DNA of 64,000 nt from Psychrobacter faecalis. GTDB taxonomy: Bacteria > Pseudomonadota > Gammaproteobacteria > Pseudomonadales > Moraxellaceae. Positions 8,205 through 38,459 of the stretch are shown here, piece by piece. The notes beneath the pieces were generated by a model. It searched no databases and was not told the origin of the DNA. It was given only the letters and a program-made list of their open reading frames with translations. The position numbers were made by a program, and so were the translations under genes. The stretch lies in contig NZ_JABAST010000014.1 in NCBI RefSeq assembly GCF_016107575.1, positions 1-64,000 of the forward strand, read 5' to 3'. Each line of letters opens with the position of its first letter. Within the stretch, counting starts at the first letter, position 1.

Positions 8205-8253
8205 AAGTCATAACGATCTCGATTGTCTGTTTACTAAACCAGCTCAGCACATG

Positions 8254-9216
8254 TTAAGCATCAACATTCGGTACGCGGCATAACTTTGCCAGCAGACGAT
8301 AAATGGTATCAATCAATTGATGACGATGTACCACTTCATCAACCACCCCGTGCTCTAATAAGAACTCGGCACGCTGGAACGGCTCTTCTAGCGTCTCACG
8401 CACCGTTTGTTCAATCACGCGCTTACCAGCAAAGCCAATCATGGCTTTTGGTTCTGCCAAATGAATATCGCCAAGCATAGCAAGCGATGCCGTCACCCCG
8501 CCATAAACAGGGTTGGTCAATACTACAATATATGGCACGCCAGCTAAGCGCAAACGCTCAATCGCCGCTGCCGTACGAGCCATTTGCATCAAGGATAGCA
8601 GACCCTCTTGCATACGCGCACCGCCAGAGGCCGCAAAGCAGACTAAGGGTACTTTATCTTTAAGGGCTTTTTCAGCCGCTTCTACAAAACGGTCGCCGAC
8701 CACGGAGCCCATAGAGCCACCCATAAAACGGAAGTCAAAGGCACACGTCACGATATCAAGGTTGCGCAATTTACCATACATCACAATCATTGCTTCAGAC
8801 TCGCCGGTTTTGTCTTGTGCTTCGCTCATGCGCTGCGGATACGGCTTACTATCCACAAAGCTCAATGGGTCTTTGGCAGTGAATTGCTGTCCTAGCTCAC
8901 CCTCTACTTGGTCGAGTAGCCAGTTTAAGCGTTCACGAGCACTCATCGGTAAATGATGGTCACAATGCGGGCAGACATAGCAATTGAAAATCAGCGCCGT
9001 ATTGGTAATCATCGAATGACAGCTGCTACACTTGGTTGACGGTTCAGTTTCGACAGCCGTCAAAGGTGCGGTCAGTTGCTGTTTAATGCCCGGTATCGGG
9101 CGCTCAAACCATGATTGCCCAGCGGAACTGCCATTTTTTTCAGTCGTGCTTGTTTCAGTATTATTTGCAGTGGTCATATCAGGTTTTGTTATCGTATCAG
9201 TCATAATGTTCGCCAT
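8254..9216 (-). CDS. accD: Acetyl-CoA carboxylase carboxyltransferase, beta subunit
   Basis: About 320 aa from the ATG at 9216; a TTG two codons earlier and an ATG four codons later are alternatives, and none has a strong ribosome binding site. It forms the carboxyltransferase with AccA and transfers carboxyl from biotin to acetyl-CoA, the first step of fatty-acid synthesis. The N-terminal zinc ribbon is visible as C-x2-C-x15-C-x2-C (CSSCHSM...VCPHC). The crotonase-fold core follows: FRFMGGSMGSVVGD, AASGGARMQEG, NPVYGGVTAS and MIGFAGKRVIEQTV. The first about 45 residues are a Thr/Asn-rich extension (TITKPDMTTANNTETSTTEK) that family members usually lack or have shorter. Confidence 0.97.
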   Translation of the reverse strand: MANIMTDTITKPDMTTANNTETSTTEKNGSSAGQSWFERPIPGIKQQLTAPLTAVETEPSTKCSSCHSMITNTALIFNCYVCPHCDHHLPMSARERLNWLLDQVEGELGQQFTAKDPLSFVDSKPYPQRMSEAQDKTGESEAMIVMYGKLRNLDIVTCAFDFRFMGGSMGSVVGDRFVEAAEKALKDKVPLVCFAASGGARMQEGLLSLMQMARTAAAIERLRLAGVPYIVVLTNPVYGGVTASLAMLGDIHLAEPKAMIGFAGKRVIEQTVRETLEEPFQRAEFLLEHGVVDEVVHRHQLIDTIYRLLAKLCRVPNVDA

Positions 9217-9376
9217 TATCAAAGGCTTATCGACAAGTTGGCCAGGTTGGTTTCATTGGCTTAGTCTCTTGTCCCTAAGAAGTCCGTTTATAAGAATCAA
9301 TTTAAAAGTCACATAGCCTTAAACATCAGCAGTTATAAAGCACGCTTATGCGCAACTGTAACAATCTATATGGGAT

Positions 9377-9400
9377 GTTAGTTTACACACGTAAACTAAC
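9377..9400. promoter_or_regulatory. Perfect inverted repeat between trpA and accD
   Basis: GTTAGTTTAC / GTAAACTAAC, 10 bp each around ACAC. There is no T tract on the minus strand, the direction of trpA, so an operator or RNA hairpin in the accD upstream region is as likely as a terminator. Confidence 0.4.
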
Positions 9401-9502
9401 TTTAGCAAAGTCATTTGCCTGTGTCTTTATAAACATTGTTATAAAAATTGCGCTGACCTTCTAAGCCTTTCAAATTTAGATACCAATAAACTCGATATAA
9501 TA

Positions 9503-10327
9503 TTAGGCGGTTAAACTATCAAGTGCGCCGCGTAACTCGTCCATTTTTGCCATAATTTTTTGCTGAGCAGCTGCAACCGCAGTCGCATCTTTAGCATCGA
9601 TAACAGCAAAGTTTTGCACCAGCGCACTACCGACGATAATACCATCGGCGTGCTGACCGATCGCTTTGGCAGAGGCCGCATCACGAATACCAAAGCCCAC
9701 ACATACTGGCAAATCGGTCTCGGCTTTAATCGCTTGCACTTGGGTAGCCACATCATCGGTATCGAGCGTCGCCGAACCGGTCACGCCTTTTAATGACACA
9801 TAGTAAATATAACCACCGCAATGGGTCAGAACTTGCTCGCGACGCTCAGGCAAAGTCGTTGGCGATAATAAGAAAATTTCATTCATCGCATGCTCAGTCA
9901 AATGCTGCGTGAAGCTGCCCGCCTCAGCTGGTGGCAAATCAACCATCAAAATCCCATCGACGCCTGATTGCTCGCATAAAGCGACAAAATTGTCATAACC
10001 GATGATTTCCACGGGATTCAGATAACCCATTAAGATAATCGGCGTCTGCGTATCTTGTTTGCGGAATTCTGCCACCATGTTTAGTGCATCACGCGTACTA
10101 GTACCGGCTGCTAACGCACGCTCACCAGCTGATGCAACAGTTGGGCCATCGGCCATTGGATCAGAAAACGGCAAGCCGACTTCAATCATATCTGCGCCGT
10201 GCTTAACCAAGTCATGTAGTAAGCCAACAAAGTTAGCAGGGGTTGGATCGCCTGCCATTACATAAGGAATCAGGGATTTTTTATTTTGGGCTTTTAAGGT
10301 TTCAAAGGTGCTTTCAATTCGGGTCAT
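9503..10327 (-). CDS. trpA: Tryptophan synthase alpha chain
   Basis: 274 aa, normal length. It converts indole-3-glycerol phosphate to indole and glyceraldehyde-3-phosphate, channelled to TrpB. TIM-barrel motifs: IPYVMAGDPTPANF, DMIEVGLPFSDPMADGP with the catalytic Glu (in IEVGLPFSDP), a second catalytic Asp in GVDGILMVDLPP, and phosphate-binding loops VCVGFGIRDA and DGIIVGSALV. It is the third gene of the trpF-trpB-trpA set, 111 nt after trpB. Start ATG with an AGAGAA ribosome binding site. Confidence 0.97.
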   Translation of the reverse strand: MTRIESTFETLKAQNKKSLIPYVMAGDPTPANFVGLLHDLVKHGADMIEVGLPFSDPMADGPTVASAGERALAAGTSTRDALNMVAEFRKQDTQTPIILMGYLNPVEIIGYDNFVALCEQSGVDGILMVDLPPAEAGSFTQHLTEHAMNEIFLLSPTTLPERREQVLTHCGGYIYYVSLKGVTGSATLDTDDVATQVQAIKAETDLPVCVGFGIRDAASAKAIGQHADGIIVGSALVQNFAVIDAKDATAVAAAQQKIMAKMDELRGALDSLTA

Positions 10328-10438
10328 AGTGTTCTCTACAATTAATTCAAACTGGCTATATTGGCTCTATATATATTAAAAAGAGCCAATCAATTTATTT
10401 TATAAAAGTGGATTTATAGGGTGCAGTACAATACGTGG

Positions 10439-11713
10439 CTACAACTCAATACCTTCCGCTTTCATTACCGAATGCAAATCCTTATCACCGCGACCTGACA
10501 TATTAACGATAATGCTTTGCTCAGGCGTCATGGTTTTAGCCAGCTTCAGCGCATAGGCGACCGCATGAGCAGATTCAAGCGCAGGGATAATCCCTTCTTT
10601 ACGCGTCACTTCATGAAAACCCTCCAATGACTCTTTATCGGTACAGCCAACATATTCGACGCGTTTCATGTCTTTTAAGAAGCTGTGCTCAGGGCCAACG
10701 CCCGGATAATCAAGTCCCGCTGAGATAGAATGCGTCTCTTGGATTTGGCCTTCATCATCTGCCATTAGATAAGTACGATTGCCATGCAATACGCCGATAC
10801 GACCAGCGGCCAATGGCGCTGAATGACGACCGGTCTCAATGCCGTCACCTGTCGCTTCGACACCATACATTTTAACTTCAGTATCGTTTAGGAAATCAAA
10901 GAATAGACCAATCGCGTTTGAGCCACCACCAACACAGGCAACCAACGCATCAGGCAATTTACCGGTTTTTTCTAAATGTTGAATACGCGCTTCTTTACCG
11001 ATAATCGCTTGGAAATCACGTACCAGTAGCGGATAAGGGTGCGGCCCTGCAACCGTGCCAATAATATAATAGGTCGTATCAACGTTAGTCACCCAGTCGC
11101 GCATGGCCTCGTTCATGGCGTCTTTCAGCGTCCGCGAACCTGAAGTCACTGGCACCACTGTCGCACCAAGCAAACGCATACGATAGACGTTCATCTTTTG
11201 GCGCTCGACATCATCGGCACCCATATAAACGATACACTCTAACCCTAGGCGCGCAGCAATCGTTGCCGTCGCAACGCCATGTTGTCCCGCCCCAGTTTCG
11301 GCGATGATACGCTTTTTACCGCACATTTTGGCAAGTAGCGCCTGCCCGATGGTGTTATTTACCTTATGCGCGCCCGTATGATTTAAGTCTTCGCGTTTAA
11401 AATAAATCTGCGCGCCACCAATCTCATTACTCAAGCGCTTGGCATGATAAAGCGGGGTTGGACGACCGACATAATTGACCAAATCGTTATGATACTCTTC
11501 CCAAAACGCCGGATCGGCTTTTACTTTGGTATATAAGGTTTCAAGCTCTTCAAGCGCTGCCATCAGGGTTTCAGACACAAAACGACCGCCATGCACACCG
11601 AAATGTCCGCGCGCATCAGGATATTGGTTAAAGTCTTGTACGTTTTCTGGATTGGTAAAGGTATTGATAGCTTTAGCAGTAGCAGATACATCTTTGTTTG
11701 CGACATGACTCAT
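10439..11713 (-). CDS. trpB: Tryptophan synthase beta chain
   Basis: 424 aa, about 25 residues longer than typical because of an N-terminal extension ([20 protein letters not shown]). A PLP enzyme that condenses indole with serine. The PLP lysine lies in [15 protein letters not shown]; other motifs are [13 protein letters not shown], the phosphate-binding loop [30 protein letters not shown], and a C-terminal [10 protein letters not shown]. It lies between trpF (upstream, 99 nt) and trpA. The ATG at 11713 has TAGGA upstream. The arrangement without trpDCE is normal for the group, in which those genes lie elsewhere. Confidence 0.98.
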
Positions 11714-30436: not shown

Positions 30437-31057
30437 TTATTTAGGCAATAAAACTGTATCAATTACATGAACTACGCCGTTGGTTGCCATCATATCGGTA
30501 CCAACGATGTTTGCAGTGTTGCCACTGGCATCAGTAATCACGTTAGCATCACTAATAGAGATGGTTTGACCGTTTGCCGTGTCGATAGCGGTACCATAAG
30601 GAATATCAGCAGCTTTGACCACCATCGGCACGACATGATACGTCAATACGCTAGTCAACATCTCTTTATCACCGAGCAATTCCTCTTTAGTGACGTTTAG
30701 TTTGGTCAACAAAGCAGCAAAGGCATCATCGGTTGGGGCGAATACCGTGTATTGACCTTCTGCCATCATCATGTCATCAAGATCAGCCGCTTGCAGCGCT
30801 TCGGTTAGGATGGTTAGATTCTCATTACCAGCAGCCATCTCACCGATACTTTGCGTCGCTGCTGCATCTACAGGCATCGCATCAGTAGACTCAGCCACTG
30901 CTTCAGCTGGCATATCTGTGGTGGTTTCTGGTTCAACGGCTACGTCAGTAGTTGCGGCTGGCTCAACTGGCTCAGTAACGGCTTCTTTATCGTTACAGGC
31001 CGCCAATGACATAGCAGCGGTAACGACAGCGATAGATAATAAATTCTTTTTTAACAT
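30437..31057 (-). CDS. Fasciclin (FAS1) domain lipoprotein
   Basis: 206 aa. Lipoprotein signal MLKKNLLSIAVVTAAMSLAAC, lipobox LAAC with Cys21. It is followed by an acidic Pro/Thr/Ala-rich linker of about 55 residues (EPVEPAATTDVAVEPETTTD). A FAS1 domain (about 78-206) contains the two family blocks: QYTVFAPTDDAFAALL near its start and NGVVHVIDTVLLPK at its end, and the YHVVP motif between. It would be membrane-anchored and facing the periplasm or cell surface, in adhesion-type roles. Start ATG with AAAGGA upstream. Paralogue of the gene at 31455-32009. Confidence 0.93.
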   Translation of the reverse strand: MLKKNLLSIAVVTAAMSLAACNDKEAVTEPVEPAATTDVAVEPETTTDMPAEAVAESTDAMPVDAAATQSIGEMAAGNENLTILTEALQAADLDDMMMAEGQYTVFAPTDDAFAALLTKLNVTKEELLGDKEMLTSVLTYHVVPMVVKAADIPYGTAIDTANGQTISISDANVITDASGNTANIVGTDMMATNGVVHVIDTVLLPK

Positions 31058-31454: not shown

Positions 31455-32009
31455 TTATTTAGGCAGCAACACTCTATCTATCACATGTATCACGCCATTA
31501 CTCGCCGCGATATCTGTTTTTAAAATCTTGATGGTACGACCATTTTCATCCATCAGTCGGCCTTGTGGCGTAATCACCAGCGTATCATTACTGAGCATGG
31601 TGTAATTACCCGGTCTGACGTGTTTTTGATAAACAGGCGTATTGCCTTTGAGCACATGATAGGTCAAGATTTTGGTCAACAATGGCTTATTAGCAAACAG
31701 CTCAGCTTTGGTCATGCCGGTTTCTTGTAACGCTTGCACAAAAGCGGTATTGGTCGGAGCCAGTATCGTGTAGCTTGCACTGGTATCGGTCAGCGCGCCT
31801 GCTAAACCTGCCGCTTGCAAGGCTTCTACTAACAGTGAGAAATCAGCGTTGCTTTGAGCAATCTGTACCACGTTCATATTGGCAGTTGGTTGGCTGTGCA
31901 TGGGCGCTGTTGTGACAGGAGTTTTGGTTGGCATCATATTATTACAAGCGCTAAGGCCGGCAATTGAAAGGGCTAAGGTACCAAGAGTGGCGATTTTGAT
32001 CAGTTTCAT
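31455..32009 (-). CDS. Fasciclin (FAS1) domain lipoprotein, second copy
   Basis: 184 aa from the ATG at 32009, which has AAGGAC upstream; an ATG 18 codons earlier gives a polar extension before the signal peptide and was not chosen. Lipobox LSAC (SIAGLSACNNMMP). FAS1 domain about 50-184: FSLLVEALQAAGL, SYTILAPTNTAFVQAL, LTYHVLKG, and NGVIHVIDRVLLPK. The linker is shorter and less acidic than in the neighbouring copy. The pair is likely a tandem duplication, with a third copy's remains between them. Confidence 0.92.
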   Translation of the reverse strand: MKLIKIATLGTLALSIAGLSACNNMMPTKTPVTTAPMHSQPTANMNVVQIAQSNADFSLLVEALQAAGLAGALTDTSASYTILAPTNTAFVQALQETGMTKAELFANKPLLTKILTYHVLKGNTPVYQKHVRPGNYTMLSNDTLVITPQGRLMDENGRTIKILKTDIAASNGVIHVIDRVLLPK

Positions 32010-32770
32010 AACATTGTCCTTAATGATTGAATGACTACATGGTTTAATAAATGAATAGTTCACTGATTACAATTTATGGATTTTTATTACGGTCTTACGG
32101 GCAGATTGTCTTTTCTTAAAATCCTTGCCTATTCCGTTTTTAATTCTTAATTGCTAACCACTCTCAAATAAAAACCATTAACAGTTACTAATAAGCATTG
32201 CTTATGAAACGTCAATCCTTCTGAAATTAAATTAACATATCACAAAGCATTATAAACTTGCGTTTAGGCTAATTTTTGTAGCTTGCATGTAAACCAAATC
32301 AGTTTAATAAAACCTGGTATAAATAGCTGCTTTATAAATACAAATCAAAGCTTTAGGTAATCCTCTACTGAAATGATATTCATTTGTTCCAAGCGGCGTT
32401 ATGCAATAGAATTTGTTATAACTGTATTTTTAATTTGGTAGTTTTAATAATGTGCTAACTTTTAATACCATGCTCATTTGGTGCAACGATAATTGGTTAT
32501 AGTAATCAATTTTTGTTATTTTTAAATACGATGGCGTCAGTGATAGTGCCGAAATGGAATAAGCGGAATAAGCACAATCCCGCGAGTAATAGCCGTTTCG
32601 TGCTAGAATAATCTAGATTTGCTTATCGATTTTGAAGCCACCTTTTTATCAATACTATTGTTTTATATAGCCTATTTTATAAGTAGCTAACTTAGTAAGC
32701 TCGCCCTAAAAACTTTGAAAGACTTTATCTTCTTCCTTTTCTTATCTTGACTCTAATAAGCAGCGCTCCT
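32010..32770. other. Divergent 5' region of metH and the second fasciclin gene; no gene
   Basis: 761 nt, very AT-rich. No ORF of note and no cobalamin or SAM riboswitch motif recognised. A Fur-box-like core, AATGATATTCATT, is at 32372-32384. Confidence 0.6.
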
Positions 32771-36926: not shown

Positions 36927-38459
36927 ATGAAATCATTTAAATTAGCATTATTAGCCATCACTACTTCTCTGCTCTTACAAGGATGTAATGATGATTCCGA
37001 TTCCTATCAGCCACCTTCACAGCCACCTGATATTAAATCTGAAATGACAGGACTTTGGACTAGCAATGATACCGAAAGTGATCTTTTGGCTCTAGCTTTC
37101 TTCGAAGATGGTTCTTATATTCATGTAGAGGTAGAAAACAAGCCTGAACCTCTATTAAGACAAGCTTTTACAATCCAGTCAGGAAACGTTGCAAATGATG
37201 GCATGGAGTGGGGGAAATATACTATAGACAATAAAACAGGAGCATTGAAGGTTAATCAAATTTTCGATGATAATGGTGAAAACGGTCTATCAGAAAACCT
37301 GACTCAGTATATTTCAGTATCTGAAGGGATACTTACCATTCAGATTGATGAGAATAATAATGGCGTTATAGATAGCAATGAGTCTTTCAGTTTCTCAAAA
37401 GCTAAAAATGACGGATATTTAGGAATTTGGAGAGGCGAGGAAACAGAGGACGAGTTAGAGTCAGTTGCTTTTTTTGAAGATGGTACTTATATTCAGCTTA
37501 AAGTTGATGCAGAAAAATCATTAGATAACCCAGAAAACGGTATGGAGTGGGGTAATTATACCGTTGACGCTAACACGGATAGATTGGAAACCAGTCAAAT
37601 CTTTGATGATAATGGTATCTCAGGATTTTCAGAACCTCTTACACGCTACCTTAAAGCATCTAGTGGCGAACTTACACTTGACGTTGATGAGAATCAGAAT
37701 GGCGTTATAGATGAAAATGAATCCTTTGATTTTTCGAAAAACAGACCTATTGTAATGCCAACGTCTAAAAAACTTATAGGGCTTTGGGAAAATAAAGATA
37801 CTAGCAATGATTTATTAGCGTTAGCATTCTTTGATGACGGCACCTATGTTCATATGGAAGTTGACGAAAGGCCACCTTTTGACAACCCTAATAATGAGAA
37901 GTCTGGTATGGAATGGGGTAGATTTACTTTAAATGATAAAACAGGAGAATTAAAAGTAAATCAGATTTTCGATAATAATGGCGACACTGGATTATCAGAT
38001 ATTCTTATCCGATACGCTCGAATATCTGGTGACACCCTGACTCTGGAAGTTGATGAAAATAGAAATGGTGCAATAGATAATGATGAGTCTTTTAAATTCG
38101 AAAAGGCCAAGTCTGAAAAAATAGTAGGACTTTGGAGAAATAAAGACACTAACAATGAGCTATTGGCATTAGCATTTTTCGATGATGGCACCTATGTTCA
38201 CATGGAAGTCGACAATGCACCACCTTTCGATAATATGGATAAAGAAATATCCGGTATGGAGTGGGGAAACTATACTATCAATGGCATAACAGGAGCATTA
38301 ACAGTTAATCAAATACTAGATAACAATGGTAGTACTGGATTGTCAGATGCTCTATCTCGGTATGTAAGAGTAAATGATAAACGACTGACGCTTGAAGTTG
38401 ATGAAAATAAGAATGGCATCATAGACGATGATGAGTTTTTCCATTTTCAGCGCCAGTAA
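36927..38459 (+). CDS. Lipoprotein with four tandem repeats, each ending in an EF-hand loop
   Basis: 510 aa. Lipoprotein signal with lipobox LLQGC (Cys20), then a short Ser/Pro linker. Four repeats of about 110 residues follow, at about 42-158, 164-271, 284-393 and 401-509. Each runs GLW, LLALAFFxDGTYxHxEVD, GMEWGxYT, LxVNQIFDxNG, GLSxxLxRY and LTLEVDEN. Each ends in a 12-residue loop fitting the EF-hand pattern D-x-N-x-N-G-x-I/V-D-x-x-E: residues 141-152, 254-265, 376-387 and 492-503. Repeats 3 and 4 are the most similar, also in DNA, suggesting recent duplication. The Asp and Glu content is very high. It is probably a surface or periplasmic calcium-binding protein; the fold is not identified (each unit is lipocalin-like in feel, GLW...FxxDGTY, but that is speculation). 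No known family is recognised. Strong ribosome binding site AAGGAGAG. It is AT-richer than its neighbours and may have been acquired. Confidence 0.8.
   Translation: MKSFKLALLAITTSLLLQGCNDDSDSYQPPSQPPDIKSEMTGLWTSNDTESDLLALAFFEDGSYIHVEVENKPEPLLRQAFTIQSGNVANDGMEWGKYTIDNKTGALKVNQIFDDNGENGLSENLTQYISVSEGILTIQIDENNNGVIDSNESFSFSKAKNDGYLGIWRGEETEDELESVAFFEDGTYIQLKVDAEKSLDNPENGMEWGNYTVDANTDRLETSQIFDDNGISGFSEPLTRYLKASSGELTLDVDENQNGVIDENESFDFSKNRPIVMPTSKKLIGLWENKDTSNDLLALAFFDDGTYVHMEVDERPPFDNPNNEKSGMEWGRFTLNDKTGELKVNQIFDNNGDTGLSDILIRYARISGDTLTLEVDENRNGAIDNDESFKFEKAKSEKIVGLWRNKDTNNELLALAFFDDGTYVHMEVDNAPPFDNMDKEISGMEWGNYTINGITGALTVNQILDNNGSTGLSDALSRYVRVNDKRLTLEVDENKNGIIDDDEFFHFQRQ

Follow-up and report, generated by a model that had tools for sequence, protein, structure and literature searches.

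The window, a stretch of 64,000 nucleotides of a Psychrobacter faecalis contig, contained at positions 36,927–38,459 a forward-strand gene for a lipoprotein of 510 amino acids, in which a signal peptide and an acidic spacer precede four tandem repeats. The features of this gene are listed below, with the basis of each assignment in brackets.

36927..38459, + strand: whole gene of the predicted four-barrel lipoprotein, 510 aa (ORF and translation)
36927..36986, + strand: signal peptide and lipobox with the lipid-bearing Cys20, residues 1–20 (sequence)
36987..37040, + strand: acidic Pro-rich spacer, residues 21–38 (alignment, low pLDDT up to residue 33)
37044..37394, + strand: predicted barrel 1, residues 40–156 (profile match, modelled strands)
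37347..37382, + strand: EF loop 1, residues 141–152, DENNNGVIDSNE (strict pattern match)
37416..37733, + strand: predicted barrel 2, residues 164–269 (profile match, strands of the full-chain model)
37686..37721, + strand: EF loop 2, residues 254–265, DENQNGVIDENE (strict pattern match)
37773..38099, + strand: predicted barrel 3, residues 283–391 (profile match, single-repeat model)
37971..37997, + strand: rim loop DNNGDTGLS of barrel 3, residues 349–357, the DxNGxxG[LF] part of the rim signature (alignment, model)
38052..38087, + strand: EF loop 3, residues 376–387, DENRNGAIDNDE (strict pattern, single-repeat model)
38118..38447, + strand: predicted barrel 4, residues 398–507 (profile match, strands of the full-chain model)
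38400..38435, + strand: EF loop 4, residues 492–503, DENKNGIIDDDE (strict pattern match)

The lipobox read LLLQGC, with Asn at position +2 after Cys20, and its cysteine was invariant in alignment A1. The spacer between the lipid anchor and barrel 1 was very variable in length among the aligned species. The four repeats, of about 110 residues each, carried G[LI]W anchors at residues 42, 166, 285 and 401, and their pairwise identities were 50, 53, 50, 46, 47 and 68%. The lipobox at Cys20 and the four tandem repeats, both announced by an earlier reading made without database searches (the sequence-only reading), were thus recovered in the translation. The protein was acidic (98 acidic versus 42 basic residues). 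The corresponding frame of the complementary strand of 36,927–38,459 contained many stops. A promoter scan returned 9 matches for 8.5 expected, and a terminator scan 0 for 1.1 expected. When the genome was searched with the repeat profile, matches were found at the four repeats of this gene only, and a search with the single protein added one trivial signal-peptide match (E 0.28). Elsewhere in the window, the segment 81–2607 resembled a prophage end, with a tail-type protein, a small membrane protein and a lysozyme-like glycosyl hydrolase (named by eye), and two neighbouring lipoprotein genes on the reverse strand, at 30437–31057 and 31455–32063, looked like fasciclin (FAS1) paralogues.

The strict EF-hand pattern, a 12-residue loop D1-x-[DNS]3-x-[DNS]5-G6-x-[ILV]8-x-x-x-[DE]12, was present in all four repeats and nowhere else in the protein, whereas 5000 composition shuffles averaged 0.0078 matches and never exceeded 1. 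All four loops showed the spacing D1-N3-N5-G6-I8-D9-E12. The sequence-only reading had described D1, N3, N5, G6, D9 and E12 correctly in every loop; its account of positions 7 and 8 had to be amended, position 7 being V, V, A and I in loops 1–4 and position 8 invariably Ile. The strict motif Dx[DN]xDG, with Asp at position 5, was matched by none of the loops, all of which have Asn there, and this Asn may weaken Ca2+ binding. The relaxed form Dx[DNST]x[DN][GADN]xx[DE], as given in the available text of PMC3123361, fitted the four loops. The flanks were not those of the EF-hand superfamily. Beta strands were found on both sides of the loop in both structural models, the full-chain model showing no helix there beyond a turn of up to three residues at the loop end, and each 110-aa barrel had one loop instead of a pair; pairing between adjacent barrels is beyond the reach of the full-chain model (pTM 0.57). 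Pfam EF-hand_1 scored 12.3 bits on the 510-aa protein, under its cut-off of 25.4 bits, and EF-hand matches at E <= 0.1 were obtained in 7 of 60 aligned repeats (best 0.0087). The idea that an EF-type loop sits here outside a helix-loop-helix, in a beta context, was therefore borne out by the strand-loop-strand arrangement in the models. The comparison with dockerin made at the same time was a poor one, strand-loop-strand being a context already named for the motif in what is available of PMC3123361.

The structure predictions proposed with the sequence-only reading, of one repeat and of the whole chain, were both run, and supplied a lipocalin-like eight-stranded barrel for a unit to which that reading had given no fold. 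Barrel 3 was modelled singly as residues 279–395 with AlphaFold2, which places no ions, from 60 aligned repeats; the model reached a pLDDT of 89.7 and a pTM of 0.82. Its eight strands (7–10, 17–23, 28–35, 49–57, 63–71, 84–89, 92–97 and 110–115) fit an up-and-down barrel of the lipocalin-like/calycin type. Long connections of 6, 13, 12 and 12 residues (beta1-2, 3-4, 5-6 and 7-8) alternate with tight turns of 4, 5 and 2 residues (2-3, 4-5 and 6-7). EF loop 3, at model residues 98–109, is exactly the beta7-beta8 connection, between strands 92–97 and 110–115. The whole-chain model, based on 16 sequences (mean pLDDT 77.2, pTM 0.57), repeated the strand pattern four times, the orientation between its barrels being unsure.

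A Foldseek search of the repeat model against the PDB returned no match at E <= 0.001 (best 6.4e-3), and small bacterial lipocalin-like lipoproteins came first among the matches listed. Foldseek's own matches were re-examined with VIA-align 2, which gave Z 10.1 for 4gzv (rmsd 3.6, 103 aligned), Z 9.7 for 4zgf (rmsd 2.6, 97 aligned) and Z 9.6 for 2kts, HslJ (rmsd 2.4, 92 aligned). Most of the neighbours were bacterial barrels of lipocalin-like or FABP-like type. Lipocalin-family, DUF4847, potempin E, TP0435, ToxS, APCDD1 and fatty-acid-binding chains, together with 2kts, covered Z 7.5–10.1 among the matches listed. According to the tool's own note, models that lack a clear match often reach a best Z of 7 to 8. 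Values of 8 to 10 are thus only moderately above that background, and the weight rests on the agreement of the top rows.

At the sequence level, the 510-aa protein scored below the cut-off of every Pfam and NCBIfam model, and sequence searches of the PDB gave sub-threshold matches only. EF-hand_STIM1, QSOX_Trx1, the CshA repeat and TIGR03066 scored below their cut-offs and were set aside. The NCBIfam model of the J517_1871 lipoprotein (NF045606) reached 21.3 bits against a cut-off of 60 bits and was absent from the 19 related genomes searched. Pfam Lipocalin_4 (PF13648) gave no match at E <= 0.1 on the repeat of the window; it was found in 4 of the 60 aligned repeats (best E 1.2e-4), at 19.8 bits against a cut-off of 22.4 on one protein from a related genus (g15, see below), and in 4 of the 30 chosen domains of the broader profile A3, where it was the sole Pfam family at E <= 0.01. 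The model, its structural neighbours and this weak Lipocalin_4 signal agree in pointing to a lipocalin-like barrel for the 110-aa unit. The profile search suggested along with the sequence-only reading was thus carried out, and no curated family placed the repeat above cut-off. The statement that the unit has no recognised family holds in the sense that no curated model claims it, and has to be given up in another, as the unit is part of a wider domain family.

The gene was found in 19 of 105 Psychrobacter genomes, with four barrels in 13 and two in 6, and a scan of named contigs yielded five loci, every one from Psychrobacter. The genus assignment rests on identity between proteins of these genomes and proteins on the named Psychrobacter contigs. 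In a sample of the family Moraxellaceae, the single-protein search was positive in 34 of 299 genomes: the genome of origin, 18 more Psychrobacter, 14 genomes of a second genus, g15, and one of a third, g13. Eleven loci were read out of the 15 g15 and g13 genomes. Their proteins measured from 387 to at least 623 aa (the longest, at locus L022, is cut by the locus end) and contained two copies of the domain in 10 loci and four in one. Counting the genome of origin each time, the narrower profile A2 was positive in 3 of 369 genomes of the class sample, and A3 in 41 of 390 of the order sample and 9 of 349 of the phylum sample. Exactly two copies were detected in each of 32 frames (26 distinct) from the distant loci fetched, two of these copies being weak (9.7 and 12.0 bits). 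Judged by these profile matches, the domain is a wider family that extends beyond the window across the order and into other classes, used in twos and fours. Since two or four barrels were present wherever proteins were read, the barrel pair is probably the working unit. The searches of plasmids and phages gave no match. The gene looks like a stand-alone, patchily retained unit.

A second conserved loop of the repeats, DxNGxxG[LF]S (residues 349–357 for example), had escaped the sequence-only reading. In the single-repeat model it comes after strand 5, and the motif GxExG begins strand 4. Across the 30 domains of A3, G49 was invariant and G7, W9, Y29, E51, G53, D71, N73, G77 and L93 were at least 90% conserved. 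Among 52 distinct domains of the distant frames, GxExG was exact in 33, a DxNGxxG-like sequence was seen in 30 and both in 24, and the rim signature GxExG / DxNGxxG[LF] is, over the domains aligned, widespread and short of universal. In an up-and-down barrel whose long connections share one end, we infer that the EF loop would adjoin this signature.

The EF loop itself had a much narrower distribution. The 46 Psychrobacter repeats of A2 comprised 29 canonical loops, 9 lacking only Gly6 and 8 that were degenerate or gone; no EF loop was seen in the 14 aligned g15 and g13 repeats, and no strict one in the last part of the 52 further domains. The alignment showed that repeat 4 of L003 and repeat 2 of L012, L013 and L014 had lost the loop but kept both strands, which makes the EF loop a detachable part. 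Repeat 4 of L005, L006, L007, L011, L012 and L014 formed one clade (99/96), in which the EF loop, GxExG and DxNGxxG had all decayed. The pattern calls for about three losses of the EF loop within Psychrobacter, with retention of the strands, and this repeated loss argues that it is dispensable for the fold. The four C-terminal domains at L070–L073 carried in the beta7-beta8 hairpin a shorter acidic turn, DxDGDxLID, a possible separate calcium site; calcium-type turns at this place thus seem to reach beyond Psychrobacter. On these alignments, the full EF loop is an add-on found in Psychrobacter, with a related shorter turn in one neighbouring group.

The domain tree had 15 of 63 forks open and several long branches meeting, and only the partial position-wise grouping and the loss pattern were drawn from it. 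Across species, the R1 and R2 copies mostly clustered by position, and one subgroup showed this for its R3 copies too, while repeats R3 and R4 of the protein in the window had no firm placement. This grouping of copies by position indicates that the four-barrel form and its loop probably predate these species. The odd and even copies of g15 fell into separate groups, subject to a long-branch warning, and in the four-copy protein of L022 copy 3 was placed with the odd group and copy 4 with the even group, as if the four copies had arisen by doubling of a pair.

Upstream of the gene lies metH (named by eye), and downstream on the opposite strand are a TolB-like propeller lipoprotein (by eye), a META-domain lipoprotein, a lipase chaperone and an alpha/beta hydrolase. 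The neighbourhoods of 15 loci were compared, 13 from Psychrobacter and 2 from g15, with L032 and L048 cut by contig ends. metH was on the locus in 9 of the 15, and 7 had the TolB-like gene; some loci had other genes in between, L044 and L036 had neither, and the two g15 loci shared none of these genes. No conserved operon or partner gene was found among the 15 loci, and we claim no partner since the intervening genes differ and metH and the TolB-like gene are patchy. At L045, a tandem pair of paralogous lipoproteins, each about 460 aa long (8230–9642 and 9955–11328, + strand), is located between metH and the repeat gene; both carry an alpha/beta-hydrolase-like motif, VVYVHGWNNNA.

The residue at position +2 after the lipobox cysteine was Asn or Gly in most of the aligned relatives and Asp in L005. 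In Escherichia coli the +2 residue decides the membrane to which a lipoprotein is sorted, and by this rule most relatives would be sent to the outer membrane. In L020 the spacer (1255–1540) had grown to many PDQPDTPQ-like units and was by far the longest among the relatives, which would suit a reach-out tether. SLAM-dependent export was also considered as a candidate. A long-frame SLAM (PF04575) over cut-off was present in 5 of 19 carriers of the gene and in 26 of 86 non-carriers, which is no association, and the genome of origin had only a fragment with three stops (G000:C44:18463-18705), long-frame copies occurring elsewhere in the genus; this route was left unsupported. With neither a conserved operon nor a SLAM association found, the "surface calcium sensor or adhesin" of the sequence-only reading did not receive support.

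We think it rather probable that each lipocalin-like barrel would bind one Ca2+ at the end where its loops gather, and that the string is a calcium-stabilised module of the envelope. In this model, a lipid anchor and a flexible acidic spacer would be followed by four lipocalin-like eight-stranded barrels in a row, each EF loop holding one Ca2+ on its own, with no partner EF-hand. Such an ion would order the barrel rim, and so stabilise the barrel and the surface formed by the rim loops. Calcium-rich water would keep the sites filled, in which case the ion would be structural rather than a signal. With the barrel pair as its probable working unit, the string would act as a calcium-stabilised spacer or as a ligand-holding module. 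We put forward much more tentatively that an unnamed lipocalin-like family, whose domains serve envelope lipoproteins in twos and fours and often bear the rim signature, acquired a detachable EF loop in its last hairpin, with Ca2+ acting to gate or shape the end of each barrel that takes up the ligand.

Several other explanations were weighed. There is some chance, which we hold to be limited, that the protein is a ligand-binding or adhesive surface protein, in which GxExG / DxNGxxG[LF] binds a sugar, a peptide or a metal with Ca2+ within the site. The conservation of the rim residues in the 30 chosen domains (G49 invariant; E51, G53, D71, N73 and G77 at 90% or more) is what such a site would leave, and in the repeat-4 clade the EF loop and the rim signature decayed together, as if they were one site. 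This joint decay was nevertheless confined to one clade, repeat 4 of L003 and repeat 2 of L012 having no EF loop and a largely kept signature; in the wider set the two motifs were found in only 33 (GxExG, exact) and 30 (DxNGxxG-like) of 52 domains, and no ligand, partner gene or conserved operon was seen among the compared loci. It is unlikely that the loops are an acidic decoration with no physiological ion, maintained by homogenisation of the repeats. The acidic excess of 98 over 42 residues would fit such a decoration, as would the 8 degenerate or missing loops of 46 genus repeats and the 9 more without Gly6, but the spacing was kept in the four copies and canonical in 29 of 46, for which composition alone is insufficient.

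The envelope calcium sensor, in which filling of the loop would change the protein and signal in the manner of NlpE, seems to us quite improbable. NlpE-type lipoproteins signal stress, and NlpE (2z4i, 2z4h) was among the Foldseek matches, although two of the three such rows had an rmsd above 20. No signalling gene was present in the neighbourhoods compared, the occurrence was patchy (19 of 105 genomes), and the loops are single and unpaired, an arrangement that does not favour cooperative switching. Potempin E is a protease inhibitor and its structures (8ehc, 8ehd) were among the structural matches, which would make the protein an inhibitor lipoprotein; many unrelated lipocalin-like proteins are among these matches too, however, and the neighbourhoods compared contained no protease, and we give this explanation hardly any credence.

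The protein leads to a family of lipocalin-like domains in envelope lipoproteins, with even copy numbers wherever read and no Pfam or NCBIfam cut-off reached in the searches run. It also offers a natural experiment, as one barrel position is found with an EF loop, a degenerate loop or a deletion in related proteins, and the gain and loss of an EF-type loop outside the helix-loop-helix becomes directly testable.

Within the family Moraxellaceae, the g15 lipoproteins (L021–L027, L029–L031) contain two or four copies of the domain at 52–82 bits, scored with a profile whose iterations had already included them, and differ in that their aligned rows lack an EF loop in the final hairpin. The N-terminal module of the two g15 proteins tested weakly resembles a region of SslE/AcfD; in the protein at L025:1405-2568 (reverse strand), residues 44–135 matched this region of the SslE/AcfD lipoprotein metalloproteases at 27.5 bits. 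The bacterial lipocalin-like domains (PF13648; DUF4847, 4zgf; BACOVA_00364, 4gzv; TP0435, 4u3q; SP_0198, 3ge2) have likewise an eight-stranded barrel of about 100 residues, and the named lipocalin-like chains gave Z 8.1 to 10.1 against the repeat model, several of them belonging to lipoproteins. The Psychrobacter protein has four such units in tandem, each with an EF loop, and scores under the Pfam cut-off.

For the loop, the available text of PMC3123361 reports Ca2+ binding by Dx[DN]xDG loops in several settings, strand-loop-strand among them, and the creation of a new Ca2+ site in CD2 by an EF-type loop placed between two of its strands. The loop chemistry is alike, with Asn at position 5 in Psychrobacter instead of the strict Asp; the host fold differs, and the word "lipocalin" is absent from the main text of that article. 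The B domains of SdrD, according to the accessible part of a preprint (PMC13174682), are tandem beta-domains, each of which has an EF-hand-like site where a loop joins two strands, and they form a rather rigid string. They have another beta fold and three Ca2+ sites per domain, and belong to a wall-anchored Gram-positive protein. Removal of Ca2+ from SdrD altered its overall size only modestly (PMC13174682), a result that counsels caution in giving Ca2+ control over the shape of the chain. The self-processing module of FrpC is secreted and has several EF-hand-like loops and a faint CATH likeness to a lipocalin-fold barrel; as described in the available text of PMC7078468, it was declared a novel fold and cleaves an Asp-Pro bond, and it is likened here by description. 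In the open-licence literature searched, PMC7078468 excepted, nothing was found on lipocalin-like barrels that carry an EF loop or on such a Psychrobacter protein. Both ingredients are known; what is unusual is their combination, as tandem lipocalin-like barrels whose last hairpin holds a full EF loop.
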